Assembly (NCBI RefSeq): GCF_022271405.1
Contig: NZ_JAJNAL010000001.1
Span: 310,001-374,000 of the forward strand
From: Rhodopseudomonas infernalis
GTDB lineage: Bacteria; Pseudomonadota; Alphaproteobacteria; Rhizobiales; Xanthobacteraceae
DNA: 64,000 nt
Reading direction: 5' to 3'
Both the position numbers and the translations under genes were made by a program. The notes beneath the pieces are model-generated. The model was given only the letters and a program-made list of their open reading frames with translations. It made no database searches and was not told the origin of the DNA. Below are positions 15,234 through 30,635 of the stretch, in pieces (position 1 is the first letter of the stretch; each line of letters begins with the position of its first letter).

Positions 15234-15258
15234 CTTGAATGACTTCGGACGATCTGCC

Positions 15259-15347
15259 GTCATGCCCGGGCTCGTCCCGGGCATCCACGCCTTCACTGCG
15301 GATCGACGTCCAAGGGCGTGGATGGCCGGGACAAGCCCGGCCATGAC
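15259..15347. repeat. palindromic repeat, family B
   Basis: It runs from GTCATGCCCGGGCTCGTCCC to GGGACAAGCCCGGCCATGAC, with GCATCCACGCC/GGCGTGGATGG in the stem. It lies just after the LysR stop. Confidence 0.85.
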
Positions 15348-15369
15348 GCGGTGCTAAGTAACAGTCTCC

Positions 15370-15509: not shown

Positions 15510-17051
15510 TCAGATCGTCCGCCCCGCTTGCGCCCAATACGGATCGCGCAAACGACGTTTGAAGATCTTGCCGGAATCTTCGCGCGGCAGTTCGGTCATG
15601 ATCTGGATGTGCTTGGGCACCTTGTAGCCGGCCAGCGCGTGCTTGAGCTGGTCGCGGATGAAGGCCTCGTCCAGCGTCACGCCGGGCTGCGGCTCGAGCA
15701 TCGCCATCAGCGACTCGCCGAACTCCGCGTCCGGGATGCCGAACACCGCGCAGTCGTGCACGCCGGGGATGGCGTGGATCGCGGCCTCGATCTCGGCCGG
15801 ATAGATGTTGACGCCGCCGGAGATCACCATGTCGCGCTTGCGGTCGCAAATGAAGACATAGCCGTCGGCGTCGATGTAGCCGACGTCGCCCGAGGTGATG
15901 AAGCCGTCGCGGTCGATCTCGGCGCGCTTCTCCGGCTTGTTGTGATAGGTGAAGTCCGGATTGCCGGCGATCCGCGAAAAGATCTCGCCGATCTCGCCCT
16001 GCGGCAACTCCTTGCCGTCGTCATCGATGAACTTGATCTCGGCGCCGGGCGCGATCTTGCCGACGGTGCCGGGCTTGTTCAGCGCGTCCTCGGAGCTGGC
16101 GAAGGTCACGGCGCCGGATTCGGTCGAGCCGTAGAACTCGTAAATCACCGGCCCCCACCACTCGATCATCGCGCGCTTGACGTCGGCCGGGCACGGCGCC
16201 GCGGCGTGGATGACGTGGCGGAGCGACGACACATCGTACTTGCTACGCACCTCCGCCGGGAGCTTCATCAGCCGGATGAACATCGTCGGCACCATGAACA
16301 CGGTGTCGATACGGTGGCGTTCGATCAGTTGCAGCAAAGTCTCCGGCTCGAACCGCGGCATCAGCACCAGCACGCCGCCGAGCCGGCCGGCCCGGATGCC
16401 GAACGCGTTCGGCGCGGAGTGATACAGCGGACCCGGGCACACCACGCGGGCGCCGGGCTTCAGCCCATAGATCAGCGCGCGCATCGCCTCGCTGTTCCTG
16501 GCCTGCTCCGGCGTCGGCGAGAACCGCTTGACGCCCTTGGGATGGCCGGTGGTGCCCGAGGTGTAGATCATGTTCTGCGGCTGCGGCAGCGCCGGGCCGT
16601 CATACGGCTTCTGCTGCGTCAGCCAGCCGTCGAGATCGATGGCGCCGGCCGGCGCGGCGCGATGCTCCGGCGCGACCTTGTAGTTGGCCAGAATTTCCGC
16701 CGGCGTCTCCACGCTCAACATCGTCACGCCGGCCGGCAGCACCGAGGCCGCCTCATGCAGCAGGTCGGCATGGCCGATCAGCACCCGCGTGCCGGTGTCG
16801 CCCAGCACATAAGCGAGCTCGTCCTGTTTGAAGTGCCAGTTCACCGGCACCATGTAGGCGCCGACCGTCATCACCGCATAGGCGGCTTCGAGAAACGCGA
16901 TGTCGTTGCGCATCAGCACGCAGACGCAATCACCCGGCGCGACGCCGAGCGCCTGCAGCCCGCCCGCCACCCGCGCCGCCCGCGCATTGACCTCGTCGAA
17001 ACTGCGATGCCGTTCGCCGGACAGGATGCCGTGGAGGAGTTGGTTGGTCAT
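15510..17051 (-). CDS. AMP-forming acyl-CoA ligase (first copy)
   Basis: This 513-residue ANL-family ligase activates a carboxylic acid to its CoA thioester through an acyl-adenylate. Visible motifs are the P-loop MIYTSGTTGHPKGVK, the FYGSTESG region, YHNKPEKRAEID, TSGDVGYIDADGYVF, and the C-terminal catalytic lysine in GKIFKRRLRDPYW. Length is normal. ATG 17051 follows AAGAAGA; the frame upstream to 17174 crosses a repeat and is not used. The order of genes (crotonase upstream on the same strand, separated by a repeat) suggests a fatty- or aryl-acid catabolic role. It is one of two ligases in the block; either could serve as the lva-type ligase. Confidence 0.9.
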   Translation of the reverse strand: MTNQLLHGILSGERHRSFDEVNARAARVAGGLQALGVAPGDCVCVLMRNDIAFLEAAYAVMTVGAYMVPVNWHFKQDELAYVLGDTGTRVLIGHADLLHEAASVLPAGVTMLSVETPAEILANYKVAPEHRAAPAGAIDLDGWLTQQKPYDGPALPQPQNMIYTSGTTGHPKGVKRFSPTPEQARNSEAMRALIYGLKPGARVVCPGPLYHSAPNAFGIRAGRLGGVLVLMPRFEPETLLQLIERHRIDTVFMVPTMFIRLMKLPAEVRSKYDVSSLRHVIHAAAPCPADVKRAMIEWWGPVIYEFYGSTESGAVTFASSEDALNKPGTVGKIAPGAEIKFIDDDGKELPQGEIGEIFSRIAGNPDFTYHNKPEKRAEIDRDGFITSGDVGYIDADGYVFICDRKRDMVISGGVNIYPAEIEAAIHAIPGVHDCAVFGIPDAEFGESLMAMLEPQPGVTLDEAFIRDQLKHALAGYKVPKHIQIMTELPREDSGKIFKRRLRDPYWAQAGRTI

Positions 17052-17075
17052 GGTCTTCTTCTTGTTCGAGGTGTC

Positions 17076-17185
17076 GTCATCCTGAGGCGCCGTCGCGAAG
17101 CGACGGCCTCGAAGGATGTGGCTGCAAGCACGCGTGTCGGTCATCCTTCGAGGCTCGCCCTCGCGGGCGAGCACCTCAGGATGAC
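17076..17185. repeat. palindromic repeat, family D (GTCATCCTGAGG type)
   Basis: The arms GTCATCCTGAGG...CCTCGAAGGATG and CATCCTTCGAGG...CCTCAGGATGAC form a long stem. It lies inside the crotonase-ligase transcription unit. Remains of another copy are at 37107-37233. Confidence 0.85.
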
Positions 17186-17197
17186 GGCGAGGCTGAA

Positions 17198-18010
17198 CTA
17201 CCCGTCGGCGAAATTCGGCGCGCGCTTTTCCATGTTGGCGCGGACGGCTTCGGTCTGGTTGGGCGAGCCGATCAGCTTCTGCTGCTCGACGCTTTCGGCC
17301 AGCAGCGCCGGGCCGGGATCGACCGTGAGATTGTTCATCATCCGCTTGGCGGCGCGGATCGCATCCGGGCTCTTGCCGGCGATCTCACGCGCCATCTCCA
17401 GCGCCGCCGCGCGCGGGTCGTCGACGACCCGAGTGGCAAGGCCGAGGCTCACGGCCTCCTGCGCACCAACGATGCGGCCAGTGTAAGTGAGTTCGCGCAG
17501 CACGTCGTCGCGCAGCAGCGACGCCAGGATCGGCGTGCCGGCCATATCGGGCACCAGGCCCCATTTGATTTCCATGATCGACATCCTGGCATCCGGCGCC
17601 ATCAGCCGGATATCGGCGCCGAGCGCGAGCTGGCAGCCGCCGCCGAACGCGACGCCGTGCACCGCAGCAATCACCGGCACCGGCAGCATCCGCCAGCCCC
17701 ACACCGCCTGCTGCGCCGCGTTGGCCTGGCCATGCGTCCGCTTGGTGAGATCGCGAAATTCGCCTCCCGGAATTCCGTTGCCGCCGCTCTCCTTCATCGC
17801 GGCGAAACGTCCCATATCGAGGCCGGCGCAAAACGCCTTACCCTCGCCGGACAGCACCACGACGCGGACGCTCTTGTCGCTGGCGAGGCGCTCGGTCGTC
17901 GCCACCAGCGCCTCGAACATCGCCGCATCGAGCGCATTCATCTTGTCCGCCCGCACCAGCCGGACGTCGGCAACGCCGTCAGTCAGCGACACCGAAACGC
18001 GATCATTCAT
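17198..18010 (-). CDS. crotonase-superfamily protein with one catalytic Glu replaced
   Basis: This 270-residue crotonase fold protein binds acyl-CoA in the AFCAGLDM (about residues 60-67) and GVAFGGGC (oxyanion hole) segments. In enoyl-CoA hydratases two Glu residues act on water: one in GGxxE after the oxyanion glycines and one in the xPE(I/V)xxG motif. Here the first is Gln (GGGCQLALGAD), the second is Glu (MEIKWGLVPD). An isomerase or other crotonase reaction is thus more likely than simple hydration. The gene is divergent from the dienoyl-reductase-like gene, with a putative operator between them, and sits upstream of the ligase. Confidence 0.85.
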   Translation of the reverse strand: MNDRVSVSLTDGVADVRLVRADKMNALDAAMFEALVATTERLASDKSVRVVVLSGEGKAFCAGLDMGRFAAMKESGGNGIPGGEFRDLTKRTHGQANAAQQAVWGWRMLPVPVIAAVHGVAFGGGCQLALGADIRLMAPDARMSIMEIKWGLVPDMAGTPILASLLRDDVLRELTYTGRIVGAQEAVSLGLATRVVDDPRAAALEMAREIAGKSPDAIRAAKRMMNNLTVDPGPALLAESVEQQKLIGSPNQTEAVRANMEKRAPNFADG

Positions 18011-18071
18011 GGGGCGGTTTCCTCTGTTGTGATTGTCAGCAAGTGCGCCGTACAGAAAAGCGTTGTCGGAA

Positions 18072-18089
18072 TTTAGTCAATCGCTTAAT
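18072..18089. promoter_or_regulatory. putative operator shared with 22583-22600
   Basis: TTTAGTCAATCGCTTAAT in the 113-base divergent region matches 14 of 18 positions of the imperfect palindrome at 22583-22600 read on its opposite strand. Both sites lie just upstream of acyl-CoA genes, as a TetR-type operator would. Confidence 0.45.
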
Positions 18090-18123
18090 CAACAGAGACC
18101 TTCCACTTTTCCGGGCACCAGAC

Positions 18124-18996
18124 ATGTTCACCGATCAGCTTCTCGCAGGCCGCCGCATCCTCGTCACCGGCGGAGGCACCGGCCTCGGCAAGGCGATGGC
18201 GGCGCGTTTCCTCCAGCTCGGCGCCGAAGTGCATATCTGCGGCCGCCGCAAAGGCGTGTGCGACGAGACCGCCACCGAGCTGATGGATCAGTACGGCGGC
18301 AAGGTGATGACTTACGGCGTCGACATCCGCGACTCCGCCGCGGTCGACCACATGATCGAAACGATCTGGGCGAACGGCCCGCTCACCGACCTGATCAACA
18401 ACGCGGCCGGAAATTTCATCTCACGGACGGAAGACCTGTCGCCGCGCGGCTTCGACGCGGTCGCCAACATCGTGATGCACGGCACCTTCTACGTGACGCA
18501 TGCGGTCGGCCGGCGCTGGGTCGAAGGCGGCCACCGCGGCAACGTAGTGTCGATCACCACCACCTGGGTGCGCAACGGCAGCCCCTATGTGGTTCCCTCG
18601 GCGATGAGCAAGTCGGCGATCCACGCGATGACGATGTCGCTCGCCACCGAATGGGGCCGCTACGGCATCCGCCTCAACACCATCGCGCCGGGCGAAATTC
18701 CGACCGAGGGCATGAGCAAGCGGATCAAGCCCGGCGACGAAGCCGGCGCCCGCACCATCAAGATGAACCCGATGGGCCGCGTCGGCACCATGGAAGAGCT
18801 GCAGAACGTCGCAGTGTTCCTGATCTCCGGCGGCTGCGATTGGATCAACGGCGAAACCATCGCGATGGACGGCGCCCAGGGCCTGGCGATGGGCGGCAAC
18901 TTCTATCAGCTCCGCGACTGGAGCAACGACGACTGGGAAACCGCAAAGGCCTCGATCAAGGCACAAAACGAAAAGGACCGCGCCAAGCGCGGCTAA
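18124..18996 (+). CDS. SDR, 2,4-dienoyl-CoA reductase type
   Basis: This 290-residue SDR has the NADP site TGGGTGLGKAMA (about residues 15-26) and NNAAGNF. The usual YxxxK pair is replaced by SAMSK (in VVPSAMSKSAIHAM), with the Tyr changed to Ser, as in peroxisomal and mitochondrial 2,4-dienoyl-CoA reductases, which use a different Tyr. It therefore probably reduces a dienoyl-CoA during breakdown of unsaturated acids. ATG 18124 is chosen because the protein alignment starts there; the frame extends to 18043, into the operator region. It is divergent from the crotonase at 17198. Confidence 0.85.
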   Translation: MFTDQLLAGRRILVTGGGTGLGKAMAARFLQLGAEVHICGRRKGVCDETATELMDQYGGKVMTYGVDIRDSAAVDHMIETIWANGPLTDLINNAAGNFISRTEDLSPRGFDAVANIVMHGTFYVTHAVGRRWVEGGHRGNVVSITTTWVRNGSPYVVPSAMSKSAIHAMTMSLATEWGRYGIRLNTIAPGEIPTEGMSKRIKPGDEAGARTIKMNPMGRVGTMEELQNVAVFLISGGCDWINGETIAMDGAQGLAMGGNFYQLRDWSNDDWETAKASIKAQNEKDRAKRG

Positions 18997-19045
18997 CACG
19001 CAACGCGTGCGCTATCTTGAGGCGCGCAAAGCAACTAACGACGAC

Positions 19046-19146
19046 GTCATCCCCCGCGCATGCGGGGGATCCAGTATTGCAGGGCGTCAGCGGCTAACCA
19101 CGAACGCCCTGGAATACTGGGTCGCCCGGACAAGCCGGGCGATGAC
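19046..19146. repeat. palindromic repeat, family E (GTCATCCCCCGC...GGATCCAGTATT type)
   Basis: The element combines a GTCATCCCCCGCGCATGCGG hairpin, the AGGGCGT/ACGCCCT and CAGTATT/AATACTG stem segments, and a terminal GCCCGG/CCGGGC hairpin ending GATGAC. It is the only feature in the gap 18997-19313 before the second ligase. Copies are at 61006 and 61298. Confidence 0.8.
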
Positions 19147-19313
19147 CCCTTTCCTCTGCGTGGCGATTGTGCTCTGCCCACGGCGCCACTGGCCACGACG
19201 GCCTGCACCTCCTCCCCTTCCCGCGACACTCCCTCCCGCTTGTGTTTGCCTGCGAAGCGCGGCAGACTTCCGGCCAAGCAACAACTAACAAAAAACACAT
19301 CCAGGGAGTTACA

Positions 19314-20927
19314 ATGTCCGACCTTCAGGAGAAGGCCCGCGCAGCCGCGCCGGCAGCTTCGTCCGAGCCGGCCACGCTGGCCGACGTCATCCGCGCGCAG
19401 GCCAAGGCCCGCGGCGACGAGGTGGTCTACGAATTCGAAGGCCGCATCAGCAGTTTCGCGCAGTTCGATGCGCACACCAACCAGATCGCCCGCGCGCTCA
19501 AAGCCTCCGGCGTCAAGCCGAACGAGCGCATCGCTTATCTCGGCAAGAACAGCGATATCTATTTCGAGATCTGGGGCGGCGCCATCAAGGCCAAGGTGGT
19601 GATGGCGCCGGTGAACTGGCGGCTCGCAGGGCCCGAGATCGCCTACATCGTCGAGGACTGCAAAGCCGCGATCCTGTTCGTCGGTCCGGAATTCGTCGAT
19701 CAGGTGCGCGGCCTCAAGGACCAGATCCCGAGCGTCCGCCATATCATCACCACCGAAGGCGGCGCGCCGGAGTGGCAGGACTTCACGAAATGGCGCGATG
19801 CGCAGCCGAGTGACGACCCGCAAGTCGCCGTCGCGCCGTCCGACATCGCCATCCAGCTCTACACCTCGGGTACCACCGGCAAGCCCAAGGGCGCGATGCT
19901 GAGCCACGCCAACTTCCTGTCGCTGGTTCGCGCGGGCCAGGACAACAAGCCGGACTGGAACAAGTGGTCGACCGAGGATGTCTCGCTGGTGGCGATGCCG
20001 GTGTTCCACATCGGCGGCTCGGGCTGGGGCATGATGGGCGTGTATCACGGCGCCAAGGGCGTGATCGCGCGCGAGTTCGATCCCACCAAGGTGCTCGATT
20101 TCTTCGAGCAGTCCGGCATCACCAAGCTGTTCATGGTGCCGGCCGCGATGCAGTTCGTGGTGCGTCAGCCGCGCGCCCGTGAGGTCGATTTCTCGCGGCT
20201 GAAATACATGCTGTACGGCGCCTCGCCGATCCCCGCGGCGCTGCTGAAGGAATGCATCGACGTTTTCAAATGCGGCTTCGTGCAGATGTACGGCATGACC
20301 GAGACCACCGGCACCATCGTGGCGCTGCCGCCCGAGGATCACGTCGAAGGGCTGGAGCGGATGCGCTCCGCCGGCAAGGCGCTGCCCGGCGTCGAGATCG
20401 CGATCCTCGATCCCGATGGCAAGCCGCTGCCGCCGCGCCAAGTCGGCGAGATCGCCACCCGCTCCGGGTCGAACATGGCCGGCTACTGGAATCTGCCGGA
20501 GGCGACCAAGAAGACCATCGACAGCAACAACTGGCTGCGCACCGGCGACGCCGGCTACATGGACGAAGACGGCTACGTCTACATCCACGACCGCATCAAG
20601 GACATGATCATCTCCGGCGGCGAGAACATCTACCCGGCCGAAGTCGAGAGCGCGATCTGCGACCATCCCGACGTCGCCGAAGTCGCGGTCGTGGGCGTGC
20701 CCGACGATCAGTGGGGCGAAGCGGTGAAAGCCGTGGTGGTGATGAAGCCCGGCAAGGACGCCACCGCGCAGGACATCATCAGCTTCACCCGCAGCCGCAT
20801 CGCCGGCTACAAGACCCCGAAGTCGATCGACTTCATTCCCGCCCTGCCCCGCAACGCGTCGGGCAAGATCCTGCGCCGCCACCTCCGCGATCCGTATTGG
20901 GCGGGGAAGGATCGGCAGGTGAACTGA
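19314..20927 (+). CDS. long/medium-chain AMP-forming acyl-CoA ligase (second copy)
   Basis: This 537-residue ANL ligase activates fatty-type acids to acyl-CoA. Motifs include LYTSGTTGKPKGAMLSH, QMYGMTETTG, WLRTGDAGYMDEDGYVY, the hinge DRIKDMIISGGENIYPAEVE and the catalytic lysine in GKILRRHLRDPYW. ATG 19314 is preceded by CAGGGAG at 19302; an in-frame extension to 19167 crosses the repeat and is not used. It is downstream of the dienoyl-CoA reductase-like gene on the same strand. The pair could be one unit interrupted by the repeat. It differs enough from the ligase at 15510 that different chain lengths or substrates are likely. Confidence 0.92.
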   Translation: MSDLQEKARAAAPAASSEPATLADVIRAQAKARGDEVVYEFEGRISSFAQFDAHTNQIARALKASGVKPNERIAYLGKNSDIYFEIWGGAIKAKVVMAPVNWRLAGPEIAYIVEDCKAAILFVGPEFVDQVRGLKDQIPSVRHIITTEGGAPEWQDFTKWRDAQPSDDPQVAVAPSDIAIQLYTSGTTGKPKGAMLSHANFLSLVRAGQDNKPDWNKWSTEDVSLVAMPVFHIGGSGWGMMGVYHGAKGVIAREFDPTKVLDFFEQSGITKLFMVPAAMQFVVRQPRAREVDFSRLKYMLYGASPIPAALLKECIDVFKCGFVQMYGMTETTGTIVALPPEDHVEGLERMRSAGKALPGVEIAILDPDGKPLPPRQVGEIATRSGSNMAGYWNLPEATKKTIDSNNWLRTGDAGYMDEDGYVYIHDRIKDMIISGGENIYPAEVESAICDHPDVAEVAVVGVPDDQWGEAVKAVVVMKPGKDATAQDIISFTRSRIAGYKTPKSIDFIPALPRNASGKILRRHLRDPYWAGKDRQVN

Positions 20928-20989
20928 GCGGCGTCTACACCGGACGGCGACGCTGCGCCGCCAAGCCGCGGCGCACATCCCTCACGTTT

Positions 20990-21136
20990 GTCATTCCGGG
21001 GCGCGAGCGTAGCTCGCGAACCCGGAATCCATAATCACGGTGGTCGCGTTAAGGCGCCACGTGGCAAGCATCTGCCAGCACAGCAAAGTCAGGGGATATG
21101 GATTCCGGGTTCGCGCTTCGCGCGCGCCGGAATGAC
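20990..21136. repeat. palindromic repeat, family A
   Basis: It starts GTCATTCCGGGGCGCGAGC and ends GCGCGCCGGAATGAC, with GAACCCGGAATCCATA/TATGGATTCCGGGTTC in the stem. It lies between the convergent ligase and acyl-CoA dehydrogenase genes. Confidence 0.85.
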
Positions 21137-21162
21137 GACGGAGAGGTTGTGCGTGTAGCACC

Positions 21163-21263
21163 GTAGGGTGGGCAAAGCGAAGCGTGCCCACGCGGTGCGT
21201 GGACACGGACTACGCATCGCGTGGGCGCGTGGGCACGGCGCTGCGCGCCTTTGCCCACCCTAC
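21163..21263. repeat. palindromic repeat, family G (GTAGGGTGGGCAAAG type)
   Basis: GTAGGGTGGGCAAAG faces CTTTGCCCACCCTAC almost perfectly, with CGTGCCCACGCG and CGCGTGGGCACG forming the inner stem. It ends eight bases before the acyl-CoA dehydrogenase stop codon, so it may serve as the bidirectional terminator of both convergent genes. Confidence 0.85.
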
Positions 21264-21270
21264 TGATCAC

Positions 21271-22545
21271 TCACCTCTTGTTCGCGCCCATGTAGCCGAA
21301 CAGGAATCCCGCGACCTTGCGCATCTGGATTTCCTCGCTGCCTTCGGTGATACGATAGCGGCGGTGGTGGCGGTAGATGTGCTCGAACGGCTTGTGGCGC
21401 GAATAGCCGATGCCGCCGTGGACCTGGATCGCCCGATCGGCAGCCTGACCGCACAGCCGGTTCGCCCAGTAGTTGCACATCGACACCTTGTCGGACAGCG
21501 TGTGCTCGACCTGCGCCTGGGTCATCTGATCCATCTCCCACGCGGTCTTGCGGATCAAGAGGCGCAGCATCTCGGCCTGGGTGGCGAGTTCGACCAACGG
21601 AAACTGGATCGCCTGGTTGCGCGCCAGTTCCTCGCCGAACGGTTTTCGCTCACGCGCGTATTTGACGCTCTCGTTGATGCAGAACACCGCGGCGCCGAGC
21701 GACGATGCCGCCTGCCGGATGCGATTCTCGTGCACGAAGCACTGCGCCAGCGACAGGCCGCGCCCGACCTCGCCGAACAGCGCCTCTTCGGTCACGAACA
21801 CATCCTTGAACGACACCCGCGGATGGTCGGTCGGCATGTTGAAGGTCCACAGATATTCCTCGACCTTCACGCCCGGCGCATCGGACGGCACCAGGAAGCA
21901 GGTGATGCCGCGCGCGTCGCCGTCGTTGCCCGAGGTGCGGACGAACAGCGCGCAATGTGTGGCGACGTGCATGCCCGTCGTCCACATCTTCTCGCCGTTG
22001 ATCACCCAGCCCTTCTTGCCGTCGCGCGTCGCGGGTTCGGCGCGCGTCTCCATGTGGGTCGCGTCGGAACCGTGATCGGGCTCCGTCAGTCCGAACGTGA
22101 TGCGATACTTGCCCTTGATCGAACCGTCGATCATCGCCTTCTGATCGTCGCGGCCGTAAAGATCCAGCATCTTCACGATCGGGAAGTTGCCGACGATCGA
22201 ATGTTCGTTCTGCAGATCGTTGTGCAGGCCGAGGCCTTTCGCGGCGAAGTGCTCGCGGATCACCGCCATCCACAAATTCGTGCCGTCCTGGCCGCCGTAA
22301 CGCTTCGGAATCGCGAAGCGCAAATGCCCGGCATCATCGGCGAGATTCTTCGCCTTGCGCAGCAGCTCTTCCCATTCATGACGCGGCAGCCCGCCGCCTT
22401 CGAAATCGGTGCGCGCCCATTCGCGGCGATGATCGAAGAAGCGGATGTTGTCGTCCGCCTGTTCCAGCGGCTTGATCGTGGCATCGATGAAGCGATCGAG
22501 TTCGGCCAGATAGGCGACCAGATCCTGCGGCAGAGAAAAATCCAA
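21271..22545 (-). CDS. acyl-CoA dehydrogenase, ACAD10/11 / LvaC-like
   Basis: This 424-residue flavoprotein has the ACAD fold: ITFGLTEPDHGSDATHM and WTTGMHVATHCALFVR (FAD and substrate region), then GGIGYSRHKPFEHIYR and ITEGSEEIQMRK near the C-terminus, where the glutamate of TEG serves as base in many members. The sequence is of the ACAD10/11 type rather than short-chain dehydrogenases. The TTG at 22545 is preferred: it has GGGAG six bases upstream, whereas the ATG at 22602 would lie on the operator-like palindrome. In this neighbourhood, with a kinase-like protein and a DUF6285 protein, it may eliminate phosphate from a 4-phosphoacyl-CoA instead of, or besides, normal dehydrogenation. Confidence 0.88.
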   Translation of the reverse strand: MDFSLPQDLVAYLAELDRFIDATIKPLEQADDNIRFFDHRREWARTDFEGGGLPRHEWEELLRKAKNLADDAGHLRFAIPKRYGGQDGTNLWMAVIREHFAAKGLGLHNDLQNEHSIVGNFPIVKMLDLYGRDDQKAMIDGSIKGKYRITFGLTEPDHGSDATHMETRAEPATRDGKKGWVINGEKMWTTGMHVATHCALFVRTSGNDGDARGITCFLVPSDAPGVKVEEYLWTFNMPTDHPRVSFKDVFVTEEALFGEVGRGLSLAQCFVHENRIRQAASSLGAAVFCINESVKYARERKPFGEELARNQAIQFPLVELATQAEMLRLLIRKTAWEMDQMTQAQVEHTLSDKVSMCNYWANRLCGQAADRAIQVHGGIGYSRHKPFEHIYRHHRRYRITEGSEEIQMRKVAGFLFGYMGANKR

Positions 22546-22582
22546 GGCGTGCTCCCACGGTTTTCGTGTTGTTGTTGATCTT

Positions 22583-22600
22583 GTTAAGCGAGTGATTAAC
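22583..22600. promoter_or_regulatory. imperfect palindrome, putative operator (GTTAA...TTAAC)
   Basis: GTTAAGCGAGTGATTAAC has matching GTTAA/TTAAC ends and sits in the 126-base divergent region between the acyl-CoA dehydrogenase and the crotonase. Its opposite strand matches 14 of 18 bases at 18072-18089. No matching regulator gene is seen in the window. Confidence 0.45.
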
Positions 22601-22671
22601 ATGCGCCGCGCACGACAAGTCAAGCGCGCTTCAGCCGCATCAATTCTGCTCAACGAAAAAAGGAAACGCCG

Positions 22672-23451
22672 ATGGCGCTGCAATTCTCCACCGTGACCCG
22701 CAAGGGCCCGATCACCATCGTCACGCTGTCGCGGCCCGAGGTCTACAACGCGCTGCACACCGATGCGCATTACGAGCTCGAAGGCGTGTTCAACGAATTC
22801 GCTGCGGATCCGGAGCAATGGGTGGCGATCGTCACCGGCGCCGGTGACAAGGCGTTTTGCGCCGGCAACGATCTGAAGTGGCAGGCCGCCGGCGGCAAGC
22901 GCGGCTGGGGCGAGAGCGGCTTCGGCGGGCTCACCTCGCGGTTCGATTGCGACAAGCCGATCATCGCCGCCGTCAACGGCGTGGCGATGGGCGGCGGCTT
23001 CGAGATCGCGCTCGCCTGCGACCTGATCATCGCGTCGGAGAACGCAACCTTCGCGTTGCCCGAGCCGCGCGTCGGCCTCGCCGCGCTCGCCGGCGGCCTG
23101 CACCGCCTGCCCCGCCAGATCGGCCTGAAGCGCGCGATGGGCATGATCCTCACCGCGCGCCACGTCAAGGCGCAGGAAGGCTACGAACTCGGCTTCGTCA
23201 ACGAAGTCGTCCCGCAAGGCGAAGCGCTCGCCGCGGCGGAGCGCTGGGCCGAAACCATCTGCACCGTCTCGCCGATGTCGATCCGCGCCTCCAAGCAGAC
23301 GCTGAGCCGCGGCCTCGAAGTGTCGCTGCCGCAAGCAATCACCGAGCAGCGCGACTACCCGGCAGTGAAAGCCATGGTCGCCTCGCAGGACTACATCGAG
23401 GGCCCGAAAGCGTTCTCCGAGAAACGCAAGCCGAACTGGACGGGGAAGTAG
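22672..23451 (+). CDS. enoyl-CoA hydratase (crotonase family, CaiD-like)
   Basis: This 259-residue crotonase has both catalytic glutamates: one in GGGFEIALACDL and one in FALPEPRVGL. The oxyanion sites are AFCAGNDLK and GVAMGGGF. It therefore probably hydrates an enoyl-CoA to a 3-hydroxyacyl-CoA. ATG 22672 follows AAAGGAAACGCC, a clear ribosome-binding site. It is divergent from the acyl-CoA dehydrogenase, whose product it could use, and both share the operator-like palindrome at 22583. The C-terminus KRKPNWTGK is typical of the family. Similarity to carnitinyl-CoA dehydratases is high, but no carnitine genes are near. Confidence 0.9.
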   Translation: MALQFSTVTRKGPITIVTLSRPEVYNALHTDAHYELEGVFNEFAADPEQWVAIVTGAGDKAFCAGNDLKWQAAGGKRGWGESGFGGLTSRFDCDKPIIAAVNGVAMGGGFEIALACDLIIASENATFALPEPRVGLAALAGGLHRLPRQIGLKRAMGMILTARHVKAQEGYELGFVNEVVPQGEALAAAERWAETICTVSPMSIRASKQTLSRGLEVSLPQAITEQRDYPAVKAMVASQDYIEGPKAFSEKRKPNWTGK

Positions 23452-23473
23452 TTCGTCAGCGCGACATCCCCCC

Positions 23474-23590
23474 GTCATTGCGAGCGAAGCGAAGCAATCC
23501 AGAAGCTCCGAGCACGACGCTGGATTGCTTCGTCGCGGAGCCTGTGCTCGGACGGCGCGAAGCGCCGATCCGGGTGCTCCTCGCAATGAC
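23474..23590. repeat. palindromic repeat, family C
   Basis: GTCATTGCGAGCGAAGCGAAG at the left and CTCCTCGCAATGAC at the right enclose the AAGCAATCCAG/CTGGATTGCTT stem. It fills the first part of the gap after the crotonase. Confidence 0.85.
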
Positions 23591-23624
23591 GGCAGACAAC
23601 AATGGCGCGCAAGGCCTCTCGTTC

Positions 23625-23721
23625 GTCATTGCGGGGCGCGAGCGCAGCTCGCGAACCCGAAATCCGGACGTGCTGAACTCATCGAGATTCCGGGTTCGCG
23701 CTGCGCGCGCCCCGGAATGAC
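23625..23721. repeat. palindromic repeat, family A
   Basis: GTCATTGCGGGGCGCGAGCG faces CGCGCGCCCCGGAATGAC, with CGAACCCGAAATC/GATTCCGGGTTCG inside. It lies between convergent crotonase and DUF6285 genes. Its left arm begins GTCATTGC like family C, so it may have recombined with the neighbouring copy. Confidence 0.8.
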
Positions 23722-23776
23722 GAACGATAGGTGTCGGACGTGGCGACGGCGAGCCGATCACGGCTCAGCGGACCAA

Positions 23777-24151
23777 CTACTTCTGTTCCAGCTCCCGCCG
23801 GTAGCTCGCGTAGTTTGGTTGGTCGACTGCGAGCTTGGCGAGCGTCGTGCGCCACAAATGGTCCTGCAGGCCGGGCGTCGACAGATCCATTGTGCCGGCG
23901 GCGATGCGCTCGGACAGCACACCGTTGAGTTCCAGCAGCGAACCATCGGCGCCGAGCAGGCCCTGCAGGCTCGCGAGTTCGGCCGCATCGCTTGGATCGG
24001 CCAGCGTCAACTGTCGCGTCACCAGATCAAGCGCGTTGATGCCGACGCGCAGCTTGAAGGCGGCGTGGCCGCTGATCTGCGGCGCGATCTGGTCACGCAG
24101 GAAGTCGGCGACCGCCTTGATCAGTTCGTCGGGCCTCGGTTCGTCCTGCAT
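23777..24151 (-). CDS. DUF6285-type small protein (LvaB-like)
   Basis: This 124-residue protein is mostly helical, with no membrane segment and no cysteine. It resembles DUF6285 proteins, which often lie next to an APH-like phosphotransferase. In the levulinate pathway of Pseudomonas putida the small protein LvaB is needed by the kinase LvaA to phosphorylate 4-hydroxyvaleryl-CoA; size, gene order and neighbour suggest an equivalent job here. The link from DUF6285 to LvaB is my recollection, not a search. The gene begins 18 bases after the phosphotransferase stop, so both are in one transcript, following the crotonase at 25172. Confidence 0.75.
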   Translation of the reverse strand: MQDEPRPDELIKAVADFLRDQIAPQISGHAAFKLRVGINALDLVTRQLTLADPSDAAELASLQGLLGADGSLLELNGVLSERIAAGTMDLSTPGLQDHLWRTTLAKLAVDQPNYASYRRELEQK

Positions 24152-24169
24152 CGGCGTCGCCTTTCCTAC

Positions 24170-25165
24170 CTAACCGCGCGGCGCCAGCAGCCGCAGCAGA
24201 TCGATCTCGGTTTCGGACGAGCGACGGCCAATCATCGCGCGCTCCATCGAATGATCGGGACCCTGGCGGAACCGCTGCATCATGCCGCAACACATGATGC
24301 CCCAGCGCAGCGTGCCCATCACTTCCCAAAATTTGACGCGATCGGGATCGACGTGGCCGCCTGCGGCTTCGTAACCCGCGAACATTTCCTCGCGCGAGCC
24401 GAGGCCGCCGACCGGCTTGTCGATCTCGCCGAACCGCCACGAGTTGACGCACACCCAGCCGAGATCCTCCATCGGGTCACCGCAATGCGCCAGCTCCCAG
24501 TCGAGCACGGCGCGCACGCCGTCAGCACCAATGATCAGATTGCCGTGGCGGAAATCGCCATGTACCAGCGCGATCACTTTCGACGCGCCGGGGTCGTGGT
24601 CGGTGAGCCAGCGTAGCGCCAGCTCGAACACCGGGCGCGGCCACTGCATGCCACGATAATCGGCGCGCAGCAGCTCGATCTCTTCGGTCGAACTGATCGT
24701 CCGCAGCGCAGGCAGCGCGGCGCGATCGATGCCGTGCAGGCCGGCGAGGATACTGCCGATCTGCCGCGCCAGCTTCGGGCGCGCGGCGGCGAACTCAGCG
24801 TCGCGCAAAATCTTGCGCGGGATAGTTTCGCCCTCGACCTTCTCCATGATGAAGCCGGCGCCGAGCTGATCGTCGTCGGTCAATACATGCAGCACGCGCG
24901 GCGACGGCACGCCGGCCTGATAAGCGAGCCGCATCAGTTCGGCTTCAGCGTCGAGCCCCGCCGCACGGCCCGACACGCTGCCGTAGCCGGGCGGCGAGCG
25001 GCGCAGGATCGCGGCGACATCGCCATCCGGCCGCTCGATCACGAACGACCACGTCTCCTGGCTCGCGCCGCCGGACAGCTGCGCGGCGGCGCGGATTCCC
25101 GTGGCGCCCGCGCACCAGCGCCTGACGCTGTGCGCGAGCGCGTCCGCAATCGCGGCCTTGGTCAT
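24170..25165 (-). CDS. APH-fold phosphotransferase (LvaA / ACAD10-11 kinase-domain type)
   Basis: This 331-residue protein has the aminoglycoside phosphotransferase/choline kinase fold. The catalytic loop VALVHGDFRHGNLII and the metal-binding VLDWELAHCGDPMEDLGW are intact, so activity is likely. Homologues of this subgroup phosphorylate the 4-hydroxyl of hydroxyacyl-CoA (LvaA; the N-terminal domain of human ACAD11). Its neighbours, a small DUF6285 protein downstream and a crotonase 6 bases upstream, plus the ACAD10/11-like dehydrogenase at 21271, fit that chemistry rather than antibiotic resistance. ATG 25165 starts eight bases or fewer after the crotonase stop codon, indicating an operon. 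Confidence 0.85.
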   Translation of the reverse strand: MTKAAIADALAHSVRRWCAGATGIRAAAQLSGGASQETWSFVIERPDGDVAAILRRSPPGYGSVSGRAAGLDAEAELMRLAYQAGVPSPRVLHVLTDDDQLGAGFIMEKVEGETIPRKILRDAEFAAARPKLARQIGSILAGLHGIDRAALPALRTISSTEEIELLRADYRGMQWPRPVFELALRWLTDHDPGASKVIALVHGDFRHGNLIIGADGVRAVLDWELAHCGDPMEDLGWVCVNSWRFGEIDKPVGGLGSREEMFAGYEAAGGHVDPDRVKFWEVMGTLRWGIMCCGMMQRFRQGPDHSMERAMIGRRSSETEIDLLRLLAPRG

Positions 25166-25171
25166 TCGCGG

Positions 25172-25972
25172 TTACTTGCCCTGGAATTTCGCCGGACGCT
25201 TCTCGAGAAACGCGCCGACGCCTTCCTTGAAGTCGTCGGTCGAGCCGGCGATGCGCTGCGATTCGAATTCGAGGTTGAGCTGTTCCTCGAACGAGTTCTC
25301 CGGGGAGTCCCAATACAGCTTGCGGATCAGCGACAGCGCGATGGTCGGGCCGTTGGCGAGTTCCTGCGCGAGCTTCATGGTCTCGGCCCACAGCTCGGCA
25401 TCGTCATAGACGCGATTGACCAGACCCCATTCCAGCGCCTTCTCGGCCGGCAGCTTCTCGCCGAGCAGCGACAGCTCCACGGATCGCGCCTTGCCGACGA
25501 GGCGCGGCAGCAGCCAGGTCGAGCCGCAATCCGGCACCAGACCGATGCGACGGAACGCCTGCAGGAAGTAGGACGACTTGGCGCACAGGATCATGTCGCC
25601 CATCAGGGCGAAACTCATGCCGGCGCCGGCGGCCGGCCCGTTGACCGACGTGACGATCGGGCAGTGCAGCTTGCGCAGCCGGCGCAGGAACGGATGGAAG
25701 GCGGTCTCGAGCGCGGCGCCCGCGCCCTTGCCGCTCTGGCTCATGTTGTTGCCGGAGCTGCGGCCCTGCAGATTAGCACCCGTGCAGAACGCACGGCCGG
25801 CGCCGGTGATCACCAGGCAGCGCACTTCGGCGCGCTTCTCCTCGATCGCATCGAGCGCGTCGCCGAGGCCGCCCAGCATGTCGATCGACACCGCGTTCAT
25901 CACTTCCTGATGGTCGAGCTTCAGGACGGCGACCGGCCCGTCGAATTCGAGCGTGACGTGTTTGAACTGCAT
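25172..25972 (-). CDS. crotonase-superfamily isomerase (PaaG-like)
   Basis: This 266-residue crotonase lacks both hydratase glutamates: the first position is Ser (GAGMSFALMGD) and the second is changed (FLQAFRRIGLVPD). It keeps the Asp of VPDCGSTWLLPR, which is the catalytic residue in PaaG-type isomerases that shift double bonds or rearrange epoxide CoA esters. An enoyl-CoA isomerase is therefore more likely than a hydratase. It is the first gene of the three-gene unit with the phosphotransferase and DUF6285 protein, and is divergent from the SDR at 26134 across an inverted repeat. Confidence 0.88.
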   Translation of the reverse strand: MQFKHVTLEFDGPVAVLKLDHQEVMNAVSIDMLGGLGDALDAIEEKRAEVRCLVITGAGRAFCTGANLQGRSSGNNMSQSGKGAGAALETAFHPFLRRLRKLHCPIVTSVNGPAAGAGMSFALMGDMILCAKSSYFLQAFRRIGLVPDCGSTWLLPRLVGKARSVELSLLGEKLPAEKALEWGLVNRVYDDAELWAETMKLAQELANGPTIALSLIRKLYWDSPENSFEEQLNLEFESQRIAGSTDDFKEGVGAFLEKRPAKFQGK

Positions 25973-26085
25973 AGTTTCCTCGCTGGGTCCGCGTTATTCC
26001 GCGATGTGGAAGGGCCTCGTTCTCCGAAGCCATATTTGATTTTTGCGGCGCGCTTGTCCATGGTCGAGCCACGAACGCAGCGCGC

Positions 26086-26102
26086 AACCGTGGTGCACGG
26101 TT
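26086..26102. promoter_or_regulatory. inverted repeat AACCGTG-N3-CACGGTT in divergent region
   Basis: Perfect 7-bp arms with a 3-base spacer lie 32 bases before the SDR start, between divergent genes. It could be an operator for both. It is unlike the GTTAA palindromes at 18072 and 22583, so a different regulator is implied. Confidence 0.35.
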
Positions 26103-26133
26103 TAGCGCCCAACAACAAAAATGGAAACGCTGT

Positions 26134-26913
26134 ATGAGCATTTTCGATCTGAGCGGCCGCGTCGCGGTCATCACCGGCGGCAACGGCGGCATTGGTCTCG
26201 GCATGGCGCAGGCGCTCGCCGCCGCGGGCTGCAACGTCTCGATCTGGGGCCGCAATCCGGACAAGAACAAGGCCGCGGTCGAAAGCCTCTCCAGCTTGAG
26301 TGGCAAGGCCGAGGCGCAGGTCTGCGACGTCACCGATCCGGCGTCGGTGAAAGCCGCCATGGAGTCGACACTGAAGTCATTCGGTCGCGTCGACGGCTGC
26401 TTCGCCAATGCGGGCATCGGCGGCGGCGGTCGGCAGGCCTTCATCGACCGTACCGAAGAGCAGTGGCGCACGATGTTCGCCACCAATCTCGACGGCGTCT
26501 TCCACGCCTTCCAGGCCGCGGCGCGGCACATGACCGAACGCGCCGCCAATGGTGATGGCTTCGGCCGGCTGGTCGCGACCTCGAGCCTCGCGTCGATCTT
26601 CGGCACCGCGCGCAACGAGCACTACGCGGCCACCAAGGCGGCGATCAACGCGCTGGTACGGGCCCTCGCGGTCGAACTCGCCCGCCACAACATCACAGCG
26701 AATGCGATCCTGCCCGGCTGGATCAAGAGCGACATGACCGCCGGCATCATGGGCAACGACAAATTCGTCGCCAACGTGATGCCGCGTATTCCGGTGCGCC
26801 GCTTCGGCGAGCCTGAAGATTTCGGCGGCATCGCCGTGTACCTGATGAGCAAGGCCTCGTCGTATCACACCGCCGACACGTTCGTGATCGACGGCGGCTA
26901 CACGGCGTTCTGA
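26134..26913 (+). CDS. short-chain dehydrogenase/reductase (FabG/LvaD-like)
   Basis: This 259-residue classical SDR carries TGGNGGIG (about residues 13-20), a Ser in VATSSLASIFG, and the HYAATK active-site Tyr-Lys. It oxidises or reduces a hydroxyl/keto group with NAD(P). ATG 26134 is followed by a clean domain start, but the ribosome-binding site is weak (GGAAACGCTGT). It is divergent from the crotonase-kinase unit and could be the keto/hydroxy interconverting step of the same pathway. Nothing in the motif set fixes the substrate. Confidence 0.85.
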   Translation: MSIFDLSGRVAVITGGNGGIGLGMAQALAAAGCNVSIWGRNPDKNKAAVESLSSLSGKAEAQVCDVTDPASVKAAMESTLKSFGRVDGCFANAGIGGGGRQAFIDRTEEQWRTMFATNLDGVFHAFQAAARHMTERAANGDGFGRLVATSSLASIFGTARNEHYAATKAAINALVRALAVELARHNITANAILPGWIKSDMTAGIMGNDKFVANVMPRIPVRRFGEPEDFGGIAVYLMSKASSYHTADTFVIDGGYTAF

Positions 26914-26994
26914 GGCTCACGGGCGACGACCGCTGCGTCGTCGTCATCGCGCTTGACGCTCGCCCTCCTGGTCTGCGTCTCGCTCATCCTCTCC

Positions 26995-27082
26995 GTCATG
27001 GCCGGGCTCGTCCCGGCCATCCACGCCTTTTCTACCGCGGCTGCCGCAAGGCGTGGATGCCCGGGACAAGCCCGGGCACGAC
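26995..27082. repeat. palindromic repeat, family B
   Basis: GTCATGGCCGGGCTCGTCCC faces GGGACAAGCCCGGGCACGAC, with CCATCCACGCC/GGCGTGGATGC in the stem. It lies between the convergent SDR and monooxygenase genes; the last arm has drifted (CACGAC for CATGAC). Confidence 0.8.
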
Positions 27083-27111
27083 GTGGTGAGAGGCTCTGCG
27101 CAATCTGATCA

Positions 27112-28794
27112 TCAGTTTGCCACGGCGCGTTCGGACTCCGCAGTTCGGCGCTCGGCAGTGAGACTGCCGCTCATCACAAACCCCTCGTAGCCTTTCGCCG
27201 CGACGTCGTTGCAGATCTGGCGATAGACGCCGACGCCGCCGATATAGGGCATGAACACGCGCGGCTTGCCGGGCACGTTGGCGCCCATGTACCAGGAATT
27301 CGCCTGCGGATAGAGCGTCCCCGCCGCGACTTCGTTGACGTGCGCGACCCAATTGTCTTCCGCCTGCCTGGTCGCCTCGATGCAAGCCGCGCCGCGATCC
27401 CGCATCGCCACCAGGCAATCGGTGATCCAGTCGACATGCTGTTCGATCGACAGGATCATGTTGCTCAGCACCGACGGACTGCCCGGACCGGTGACGACGA
27501 ACAGATTCGGAAAACCCTCGGTCATCAGTCCGAGATAGGTGCGCGGGCCTTCGGCCCATTTGTCGTTGAGAGTGCGGCCCGCCCTGCCACGGATGGCGAT
27601 CTTCGCGACCGATCCCGTCATCGCATCGAAGCCGGTGGCGAAGACGATCGCGTCGAGCGGATAGTGCCGCACACCGGCGCGCAGCCCGTCCGGCACGATC
27701 CGGTCGATCGGATCGGCGCGCAGGTCGACCAGCTCGACATTGGGGCGGTTGAACGTCGCGTAGTAATCGGTGTCGACACAGATGCGTTTGGAGCCGACCG
27801 GATGATTGGTCGGCTGCAGCTTGCCGGCGACCACCGGATCCTTGACGATCTCGGCGATCTTGCCCCGGATGAAGTCCGCAGCGGTGTCGTTGGCGGCTTT
27901 CTCCAACGCCAGATTGTTGTAGGCCGCCATGAAGGTCAGCCCGCCGCTTGTCCACCGGCCTTCGTAATTCTGCCGGCGCACCTCGTCGGGATCGTCGAAC
28001 GCGCCCTTCTGCGGGGGCTCGGTGAAGATGCCGTTGCGCATCTCCTCGCGCGCCTTGCGGCGGATCTCGGGATAGTTGTCGCGAAACCACTGTCGCTCCT
28101 CGGCAGTGAGCGGCGCGTTGCGGGCCGGGACAGAGAAATTGGCGGTGCGCTGAAACACGGTCAGCCGCTCGGCCTGCTCGGCGATCAGCGGGATCGATTG
28201 AATCGCCGACGAGCCGGTGCCGATCACGCCGACCCGCAGGCCGGTGAAATCGACCGGCCGATGCGGCCAATGCGCCGTGTGATAGATCGCGCCCTTGTAG
28301 TCGGCCGCGCCGGCGATGTCCGGCATGCGGGCGTTGGACAGGCACCCGGTCGCGAGCACGACGAATTGCGCCGACGCCGTCGCCCCGTCCGAGGTCGTCA
28401 CCGTCCAGCGCTGCTCGTGTTCGTCAAACAGCGCGGCCTCGACCCGCGTGTCGAACTGAATGTCGCGGCGCAGATCGAAACGGTCGGCGACGTGGTCGGC
28501 GTAAGCGAGAATTTCCGGCTGCGGCGCGTAGCGTTCGCTCCAGTCCCATTCCTGCTGCAGCTCTTCGGAAAACGAGTAGGAGTACTGCATGCTCTCGACG
28601 TCGCAGCGCGCGCCGGGATAGCGATTCCAGTACCACGTGCCGCCGACGCCCGATCCCTGCTCGAACACGCGGACCGTAAAGCCCTGCCCGCGCAGCCGGT
28701 GCAGCAAGTACATGCCGGCGAAGCCGGCTCCGACCACGATGACATCGTAATGCGCTTGCGGGACGTTGCCCGGTCGACCTTCGCCTGCGGTCAT
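27112..28794 (-). CDS. Baeyer-Villiger flavin monooxygenase (class B)
   Basis: This 560-residue FAD- and NADPH-dependent monooxygenase inserts oxygen next to a ketone, giving an ester or lactone. Two Rossmann motifs are present: GAGFAG near residues 22-27 and GTGSSA near 192-197. Between them is the Baeyer-Villiger fingerprint FxGxxxHxxxWP, here starting with Tyr instead of Phe (Tyr166, His172, Trp176-Pro177). Length matches cyclohexanone- and phenylacetone-monooxygenase relatives. ATG 28794 follows GGGAG; the 19-codon extension to 28851 lacks a site. It is divergent from a thiolase-like gene. Lactones from its products could give the hydroxy acids handled by the kinase-dehydrogenase set. Confidence 0.9.
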   Translation of the reverse strand: MTAGEGRPGNVPQAHYDVIVVGAGFAGMYLLHRLRGQGFTVRVFEQGSGVGGTWYWNRYPGARCDVESMQYSYSFSEELQQEWDWSERYAPQPEILAYADHVADRFDLRRDIQFDTRVEAALFDEHEQRWTVTTSDGATASAQFVVLATGCLSNARMPDIAGAADYKGAIYHTAHWPHRPVDFTGLRVGVIGTGSSAIQSIPLIAEQAERLTVFQRTANFSVPARNAPLTAEERQWFRDNYPEIRRKAREEMRNGIFTEPPQKGAFDDPDEVRRQNYEGRWTSGGLTFMAAYNNLALEKAANDTAADFIRGKIAEIVKDPVVAGKLQPTNHPVGSKRICVDTDYYATFNRPNVELVDLRADPIDRIVPDGLRAGVRHYPLDAIVFATGFDAMTGSVAKIAIRGRAGRTLNDKWAEGPRTYLGLMTEGFPNLFVVTGPGSPSVLSNMILSIEQHVDWITDCLVAMRDRGAACIEATRQAEDNWVAHVNEVAAGTLYPQANSWYMGANVPGKPRVFMPYIGGVGVYRQICNDVAAKGYEGFVMSGSLTAERRTAESERAVAN

Positions 28795-28988: not shown

Positions 28989-30503
28989 ATGAAAGCCGAG
29001 CTTCCGCCAGACCGCATTCCCGTCATCGCCGGTGTCGGCGAGATCGCCGATCACCCCAAGGACATCGCACAGGGGCTGGAGCCGTTGGCGCTGCTGGAAG
29101 CCGCGGTGCGACGCGCCGGCGACGACAGCGCGGCGACCCTGACACGCGAGATCGACTCGCTCGATATCGTCAACTTCCTGAGCTGGCGCTATCACGATCC
29201 GGAACAGCAGCTCGCCACAAGGCTCGGCGTGACGCCGCGGCATTGTTACTACGGGCCGGTCGGCGGCGAGAGCCCGATCCGGTTCATTCACGAGGCAGCG
29301 CTCCGGATCGCGCGCGGCGAATCCCAGGTCGCGGTGGTCTGCGGCGCCGAGGCGCAATCGACCGCCACCAAGGCGGCGCGCGCCAAACTCGAGCTGCCGT
29401 GGACGCCGTTCGCCAGCGATGCGCCCGAGCCGAAGCGCGGCGCGGCGTTCCAGAAGCCGCTCGCCACCCAGCTCGGCGTGGCGCGGCCGATCACCGTGTA
29501 TCCGCTGTACGAGGCCGCGACCGCGGCGCATTGGGGGCAGACGCCGCGTCAGGCGCTCGATGAGTCCGGGGTTCTGTGGTCGCGCTACGCAGAGGCCGCT
29601 GCGGCCAATCCGAACGCCTGGATCAAGCGCGGCTTCACGCCCGACGAGATCACCACGCCGTCCGCCGACAACCGGCTGATCGCGTGGCCCTACACCAAGC
29701 TGATGGTGGCGAATCCCAGCGTCAATTTGGGCGCCGCGGTGCTGCTGACGTCGCTGGCGAAAGCGCGCGAGGCCGGCATTGCCGACGACAAGCTGATCTA
29801 CATTCACGGCGGCGCTTCGGCCGAAGAGCCGCGCGATTTTCTGGCGCGCGATCAGTTCGTTCAGAGTCACGCCCAGAACGCCGTGCTGGACACGATCAAG
29901 TCTCTGGTCGGAGGCGACGGCCGCGCCTTCGATGCGATCGAGCTGTATTCCTGCTTCCCGGTGGTGCCGAAGATGGCGCGGCGGACGCTGGGTCTCGGCG
30001 ACGACGTGCAGCCCACCGTGACCGGCGGACTGACGTTCTTCGGCGCGCCGCTCAACACCTACATGACCCACGCCGCCTGCGCGATGGTGCGCAAGCTGCG
30101 CGGCGGCGGCAAGCTCGGCCTGCTTTACGGGCAAGGCGGCTTCGTCACCAAGCACCACGCCCTGGTGGTGTCGCGCACGCCGCAATGCGAGGCGCTGAGC
30201 GAGAGCGTCAGCGTCCAGGCCAGGGCCGACGCGGCTTACGGCGAGGTGCCGCCGTTCATCACCGACGCAACAGGCGACGGCACGGTCGAGAGCTTCACGG
30301 TGATCTACACCGGCCGCGGCGAGGTCGAGCATGGCGTCGTGGTGCTGCGGACGTCCGGGGGCGCGCGAACCCTGGCGCGGGTTCCGGCACAGGATCAGGC
30401 GACGCTGGCGTTCCTGACGAACATGGACCGCAGCCCGATCGGCACGCGCGGCGAGATCACGATCGGCGCCGATGGCGTGCCGGAGTTGCGAGCGGCTAGC
30501 TAA
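28989..30503 (+). CDS. thiolase-like / acetyl-CoA acetyltransferase family protein, long form
   Basis: This 504-residue protein is a thiolase-fold member of the long type with a C-terminal extension (about residues 420-504, mostly beta, containing FTVIYTGRGEVEHGVV), which resembles an OB-like domain. The region around GGESPIRFIHEAA replaces the normal nucleophile site, and I see no Cys there. A late ELYSCFPVV and MTHAACAMV are seen instead. Catalysis by the classical thiolase mechanism is therefore doubtful. ATG 28989 is used since the upstream frame is in the divergent promoter region. Divergence from the Baeyer-Villiger enzyme suggests joint control. The C-terminal extension could play the part that the DUF35 partner plays for the thiolase at 3396. 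Confidence 0.75.
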   Translation: MKAELPPDRIPVIAGVGEIADHPKDIAQGLEPLALLEAAVRRAGDDSAATLTREIDSLDIVNFLSWRYHDPEQQLATRLGVTPRHCYYGPVGGESPIRFIHEAALRIARGESQVAVVCGAEAQSTATKAARAKLELPWTPFASDAPEPKRGAAFQKPLATQLGVARPITVYPLYEAATAAHWGQTPRQALDESGVLWSRYAEAAAANPNAWIKRGFTPDEITTPSADNRLIAWPYTKLMVANPSVNLGAAVLLTSLAKAREAGIADDKLIYIHGGASAEEPRDFLARDQFVQSHAQNAVLDTIKSLVGGDGRAFDAIELYSCFPVVPKMARRTLGLGDDVQPTVTGGLTFFGAPLNTYMTHAACAMVRKLRGGGKLGLLYGQGGFVTKHHALVVSRTPQCEALSESVSVQARADAAYGEVPPFITDATGDGTVESFTVIYTGRGEVEHGVVVLRTSGGARTLARVPAQDQATLAFLTNMDRSPIGTRGEITIGADGVPELRAAS

Positions 30504-30629: not shown

Positions 30630-30635
30630 GACGAA

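Follow-up and report, generated by a model that had tools for sequence, protein, structure and literature searches.

An LvaA/LvaB-type acyl-CoA kinase pair in Rhodopseudomonas infernalis and its genomic companion, a Glu-type acyl-CoA dehydrogenase: a probable second class of the LvaAB-kinase module

Mammalian ACAD10 and ACAD11 and the LvaABC proteins of Pseudomonas have been reported to remove a hydroxyl group via a phosphate-ester intermediate, in mammals only in 2024-2025 (PMC11342911, PMC12440821). The catalytic Asp (D753 in mouse ACAD11) together with R626, H634 and R637 are described as common to ACAD10/11 and LvaC; the latter three were modelled as holding the phosphate, and nonconservative changes of them were reported as the most disruptive to activity (PMC12440821). 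For LvaB, a protein of 12 kDa, an interaction with LvaA was reported by pulldown (PMC6692424). Here we describe a block of genes in a 64,000 nt stretch of Rhodopseudomonas infernalis DNA (the window, in whose numbering all positions are given). The block encodes two AMP-ligases, three crotonases, two short-chain dehydrogenases/reductases (SDRs), an acyl-CoA dehydrogenase, an APH-fold kinase and a DUF6285 protein, followed by a Baeyer-Villiger monooxygenase (BVMO) and a thiolase-like protein (Table 1). An initial annotation had read it as a scattered lva-like pathway fed by the BVMO, and the genes it named are present as described, along with the second SDR. We suggest that the kinase, the DUF6285 protein and the dehydrogenase probably represent a second class of LvaAB-kinase module, with the same kind of kinase and subunit and a different dehydrogenase.

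The catalytic motifs of the kinase are intact in the alignment, and its nearest solved relatives are 3dxp (3.4e-15), deposited as a putative acyl-CoA dehydrogenase, and the kinase domain of ACAD11 (1.6e-12). The small protein matches PF19802 with 105.7 bits (cut-off 28.1). As reference we used the lva operon annotated on a P. aeruginosa plasmid record, the LvaB of which matches the same family (4.8e-24, 85.3 bits), so DUF6285 and LvaB can be equated at the level of the family, as the initial annotation had done. In a sample across the phylum, 39 of 398 Pseudomonadota genomes have PF19802, and an LvaA-like kinase was adjacent or fused at 40/40 DUF6285 places (38 genomes, the window's own genome excluded); at a further place (L171), which lies at a contig end, the cut end of a kinase is visible. 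Judged from sequence, we take the two window proteins to be a genuine LvaA/LvaB-type pair, with the DUF6285 protein as a putative kinase-binding subunit, a role for which the kinase-DUF6285 fusions described below give indirect support.

The dehydrogenase starts at a TTG at 22545, the listed open reading frame (ORF) up to 23586 being over-long, and its nearest named relative is a protein of Rhodopseudomonas pentothenatexigens (97% identical). We anchored the diagnostic residues via an ACAD11 alignment in 86 members of its clade, which are those of 80 loci and six more, the window included. All 86 carry Glu in place of the catalytic Asp, hence we name the clade gACAD. The R626 position is F in 85 and V in one, the H634 position is Q in 86/86, and the R637 position is S in 83 and G in three; the window protein has F, Q and S, respectively. 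In a quick tree the 23 gACAD rows form one clade (support 100), and 26 LvaC_ACAD11 rows fall in a separate group of 27 (support 99). The window protein is 70% identical to its Sulfitobacter relative and 28.5% identical to LvaC. Residues, tree and identity together rule out the earlier assignment as an LvaC or ACAD10/11-type enzyme, and by its sequence we assign the protein to an acyl-CoA dehydrogenase clade of its own, with an ordinary Glu base. The initial annotation had named a place in a normal fatty-acid clade as a result that would refute it, and this applies by half: the catalytic base is indeed the normal one, but the clade is not. Among the plasmid-record matches listed (25 of 1749), identity to gACAD falls from 56-59% to 36%, those at 56-59% coming from halophilic archaea and one member of Rhodobacteraceae.

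The gACAD clade and DUF6285 co-occur far beyond expectation. In the same sample of 398 genomes (the gACAD and DUF6285 draws are taken as the same genomes since count and handles agree) gACAD was found in 30, and 29 of these have DUF6285, compared with 10 of the 368 gACAD-less genomes (Fisher p 1.9e-34, not corrected for kinship). Apart from the window's own genome, 28 genomes have both; in 18 of them gACAD and DUF6285 share a 12-kb stretch, and in 10 gACAD lies elsewhere. The 10 genomes with DUF6285 and no gACAD look different: in eight an LvaC with the Asp and HCMR motifs stands next to the kinase, in one LvaD and LvaE relatives are present and no LvaC was seen, and one has neither. The same pattern was found in 61 relatives, where gACAD is present in 16 and DUF6285 in 19, all 16 gACAD relatives having DUF6285; two of the three DUF6285-only relatives have LvaC-type neighbours. 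Both genes are missing from two congeners with smaller genomes.

Gene order points the same way. We collected the best 80 of at least 591 gACAD relatives with their surroundings, mostly from Bradyrhizobium and sphingomonads, and found kinase and DUF6285 within 5 kb of gACAD at 64 loci (at 59 of the 68 loci that have 4 kb of sequence on either side). Of the other 16, one has DUF6285 at a contig end and 15 have neither gene, three of these (L049, L061, L071) with too little upstream sequence. For 11 genomes with an unlinked gACAD, a genome-wide search detected one DUF6285 elsewhere in 11/11, with a kinase beside it or fused to it in 11/11. The order in Sulfitobacter is ligase-kinase-DUF6285-gACAD-crotonases-thiolase. 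In Nocardia a DUF6285-like gene, the kinase and gACAD are consecutive (for the small protein the match is by BLAST only). On two haloarchaeal plasmids gACAD adjoins a kinase and a protein of about 158 aa (L027:9388-9867, L028:9268-9741), which is possibly an unrelated or a very diverged small subunit.

In nine of the 80 loci, all sphingomonad (L080, L089, L093, L094, L101, L102, L104, L105 and L106), kinase and DUF6285 form a single ORF, which mostly ends at or next to the gACAD start (eight of the nine were aligned); the fused gene is followed directly by gACAD in more than one neighbourhood. Such fusions also occur at lva-type loci with LvaD and LvaE relatives (L161, L162, L164), hence the two genes seem to have become fused in each class. 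Given the co-occurrence, gene order and fusions, it is very likely that gACAD is functionally coupled with the kinase pair.

A quick tree of 65 kinases, from which six near-identical Bradyrhizobium loci were left out, splits the DUF6285-linked kinases and two archaeal ones from five DUF6285-less kinases (support 98). All 13 LvaC-linked kinases belong to a single 15-row group (support 84), which together with L147, the kinase of a gACAD genome, makes 16 rows (support 97). The gACAD-linked kinases form a grade surrounding this group, and the window kinase lies outside it, in a 12-row group made up entirely of gACAD-linked kinases (support 96).

We propose a catabolic function for the cluster, centred on an acyl-CoA kinase that has two subunits as in LvaA/LvaB. 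A ligase would form a hydroxyacyl-CoA, and the kinase with its DUF6285 partner would then phosphorylate the hydroxyl, an activity that we find quite likely for the pair in view of its family. The dedicated partner would be gACAD and not LvaC, acting either on the kinase product or on the compound next to it in the same route, and crotonases and thiolase would then feed beta-oxidation; this order of steps, like the substrate, is what we infer from the gene families. Elimination of the phosphate might be performed by gACAD in a manner unlike LvaC, or by an ACAD10/11-type enzyme such as the one encoded on contig C5 of this genome. Direct action of gACAD on the phosphoacyl-CoA is a tentative idea, somewhat short of an even chance, and its acting there by a chemistry unlike that of LvaC and ACAD10/11 is less probable still. 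As an example, acceptor-linked alpha,beta-oxidation with loss of phosphate could give a dienoyl-CoA, to be handled by a dienoyl-CoA reductase and an isomerase; alternatively gACAD might handle another hydroxyl position or the other stereoisomer.

The explanation we weigh most closely against direct action holds that the 4-phosphoacyl-CoA made by the kinase pair is dephosphorylated by the unlinked C5 enzyme, with gACAD as a conventional dehydrogenase at another step on the same substrate. This genome holds a single DUF6285. Both the HCMR and the Asp motif occur in four of its dehydrogenases, encoded on contigs C5, C14, C12 and C6. The one on C14 is accompanied by a kinase of its own that has no DUF6285 partner; the C5 enzyme scores 394 bits to ACAD11, and no kinase of this kind was found within about 8 kb of it. 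At 30 of the 80 loci, though not in the window, the cluster itself includes an enzyme of the C5 kind past SDR2, with both motifs in 30/30, and this holds for many Bradyrhizobium. At an identity of at least 70%, C5-type enzymes occur in 20 of the 398 genomes (gACAD and DUF6285 are both present in 18 of these), and in 13 of the 16 gACAD relatives compared with 0 of the 45 others. In addition, Sulfitobacter, G436 and G205 each have an LvaC/ACAD11-type gene not far from the kinase pair, at distances of about 7, 13 and 16 kb. Against this, no C5-type enzyme of that identity is present in 12 of the 30 gACAD genomes, hence the kinase is bound more tightly to gACAD, and the fused kinase-DUF6285 gene leads directly into gACAD. 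We regard a C5 route as a serious candidate that nevertheless falls a little below even odds. Two other explanations fare worse. That the block is a complete scattered lva pathway, with 21271 as LvaC, 26134 as LvaD, a ligase as LvaE and the BVMO feeding it, agrees with the fold families present and with the LvaAB-type kinase pair, and so much of the lva-like description stands: a pair of that type lies among ligases, crotonases and an acyl-CoA dehydrogenase. Equivalents of LvaC, LvaD and LvaE do not appear, however. The dehydrogenase lacks all four diagnostic residues and contradicts the LvaC step, the SDRs and ligases are only 28.7-33.7% identical to LvaD and LvaE, and the BVMO is optional, which makes such a pathway very unlikely. 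A resistance or small-metabolite kinase (aminoglycoside, macrolide or thiamine) that landed in a catabolic region by chance would share the APH fold and could give weak model matches such as the 33 bits to APH(3'). That value stands against a cut-off of 205, however, and the other NCBIfam resistance models and the thiamine-kinase models are likewise far below cut-off; with ACAD-linked solved relatives and a kinase at 40/40 DUF6285 places, this is extremely improbable.

Several observations weigh against our proposal. The residues R626, H634 and R637 are absent in all 86 gACADs, and gACAD may therefore be a conventional, oxidising enzyme. In the window it stands in a separate transcription unit from the kinase, with the convergent crotonase at 22672-23451 between them. 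One gACAD genome of the 30 (G359) has no DUF6285, locus L066 has no kinase in the 10 kb upstream of gACAD (the genome-wide search was not made for it), and plasmid locus L029 has gACAD with no kinase nearby. One of the haloarchaeal small proteins was searched and gave no Pfam match, and both score only 0.01-0.03 with a profile of our own, so that we do not assign them to DUF6285. In the kinase tree, L147 and a long-branched Nocardia kinase adjoin the LvaC-linked group. A dehydrogenase similar to the C5 enzyme is found in 30/30 gACAD genomes at E <= 1e-100, compared with 99 of the 368 others (residues were checked in a minority), and again in 30/30 of a second set at E <= 1e-60 (the best match in G471 being partial). 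The two sets share one genome (L086/G407), and neither includes a gACAD genome without any ACAD10/11-like dehydrogenase; the kinase may therefore serve a C5-type enzyme. Further, the counts come mostly from related Alphaproteobacteria, their sets overlap, and none is corrected for kinship.

Table 1. Features of the block, in window numbering.
Feature	Position	Strand	Description
Acyl-CoA ligase A	15510-17051	-	NF009071; 51% to ligase of Variovorax kinase-DUF6285 operon
Crotonase ech1	17198-18010	-	NF005699 377 bits, cut-off 249
SDR1	18124-18996	+	closest NCBIfam model 2,4-dienoyl-CoA reductase: 241 bits, under cut-off 318
Acyl-CoA ligase B	19314-20927	+	49% to ligase at head of Sulfitobacter kinase operon
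Glu-type acyl-CoA dehydrogenase (gACAD)	21271-22545	-	424 aa from TTG; genomic companion of kinase pair
Crotonase ech2	22672-23451	+	PF00378; divergent from gACAD, convergent with DUF6285; retained in syntenic loci
LvaB-type small subunit (DUF6285), putative	23777-24151	-	124 aa; PF19802 2.1e-30
LvaA-like acyl-CoA kinase (APH fold), predicted	24170-25165	-	331 aa; PF01636 1.2e-35; HGDFRHGN and DWE motifs intact
Crotonase ech3	25172-25972	-	NF004635 510 bits, cut-off 351; second-best model PaaG-like isomerase
SDR2	26134-26913	+	SDR; ACAD10/11-type gene beyond it in 30/80 related loci, not here
Type I Baeyer-Villiger monooxygenase	27112-28794	-	closest solved relatives steroid and phenylacetone monooxygenase
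Thiolase-like protein (type 1 additional C-terminal domain)	28989-30503	+	syntenic neighbour in relatives

The crotonase ech3, the kinase and DUF6285 form a tight row, with gaps of 6 bp and 18 bp and DUF6285 downstream; ech3 is 47% identical to a member of the Sulfitobacter operon. The two SDRs are 33.7% and 29.7% identical to LvaD, compared with 48-92% in the fetched lva-type loci, and the two ligases are 32.0% and 28.7% identical to LvaE, compared with 51-90%. These identities rule out LvaD and LvaE orthologues. In the block spacers we noted short dispersed repeats at 15257-15353, 20980-21147, 23615-23732, 26993-27088 and 30600-30630, pairs of which are 89-95% alike, with a third copy in one repeat family at 67%.

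The BVMO scores 677 bits to steroid monooxygenase and 647 to phenylacetone monooxygenase, and it carries GxGxxG-type motifs and the fingerprint YKGAIYHTAHWP; for type I BVMOs we take the fingerprint to be [FY]xGxxxHxxxW[PD]. It is near full-length in at least 9 of 52 syntenic loci (flanks are short and some genomes are counted twice), and at this place it is absent in six congeners (L030, L031, L175-L178). In L085, titled Rhodopseudomonas sp., a BVMO lies 4.3 kb from the SDR. BVMOs were found in 12 of 97 gACAD-clade loci and in none of the 14 lva loci. We regard the BVMO as an optional gene beside the kinase module, and these data do not tie it to the kinase, hence a route from ketone over lactone and hydroxyacid to the kinase, as first imagined, has no evidence beyond adjacency; with synteny this weak we rejected it as unsupported.

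Genes for electron transfer flavoprotein were near gACAD in 4 of the 97 loci, all of one neighbourhood. Recurring gACAD neighbours include crotonases, ABC-transporter parts and a member of the nitronate-monooxygenase family (so named in the Sulfitobacter record), and others resemble, as read from their sequence, alpha-methylacyl-CoA racemase or CoA-transferase. Together these do no more than hint at a breakdown of branched acids. In Thermus and Azospirillum a gene of the histidine phosphatase family follows the dehydrogenase, kinase and DUF6285 (L021:7321-7962, L023:7364-7687), and a gene of this family was also reported to adjoin a P. citronellolis lvaA homologue (PMC6692424). In Cupriavidus (L022) and Variovorax (L024), operons with kinase and DUF6285 also contain ligase A relatives and dehydrogenases of other types, and neither gACAD nor LvaC was found within 2.5 kb of the kinase; these operons are possibly a third class of the module.

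A widespread sister class of this kind would test the need for the known phosphate-handling residues. DUF6285 would gain a function as a subunit of a kinase, and phosphoacyl-CoA metabolism would be expected in bacteria and possibly in archaea. If gACAD did act directly, by a chemistry unlike that of LvaC, phosphorylation would drive a second and chemically distinct way into beta-oxidation, present in Alpha-, Beta- and Gammaproteobacteria, Nocardia and haloarchaea. A literature search, with most subscription journals outside its coverage, returned no papers on DUF6285 by name, and no paper among the matches listed dealt with a Glu-type dehydrogenase partner of such a kinase.

Of the known systems, the lvaABCDE levulinate operon of Pseudomonas is alike in that an LvaA-like kinase and a DUF6285/LvaB subunit are accompanied by ligases and an acyl-CoA dehydrogenase. 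The window differs from it in its Glu-type dehydrogenase without R626, H634 and R637, in a kinase outside the LvaC-linked group, and in having no LvaD or LvaE orthologue. The BVMO resembles the steroid and phenylacetone monooxygenases by score and fingerprint, and differs in being only an optional neighbour of a kinase module. On contig C14 of the same genome a kinase likewise adjoins an acyl-CoA dehydrogenase, but that kinase belongs to a distant group, has no small subunit, and is paired with a dehydrogenase of the Asp/HCMR type. Mammalian ACAD10 and ACAD11 also couple a related kinase domain to an acyl-CoA dehydrogenase, there by fusion to an Asp/HCMR enzyme; the available text on them mentions no DUF6285 part, and the window dehydrogenase differs from theirs in both the catalytic and the phosphate-binding residues.

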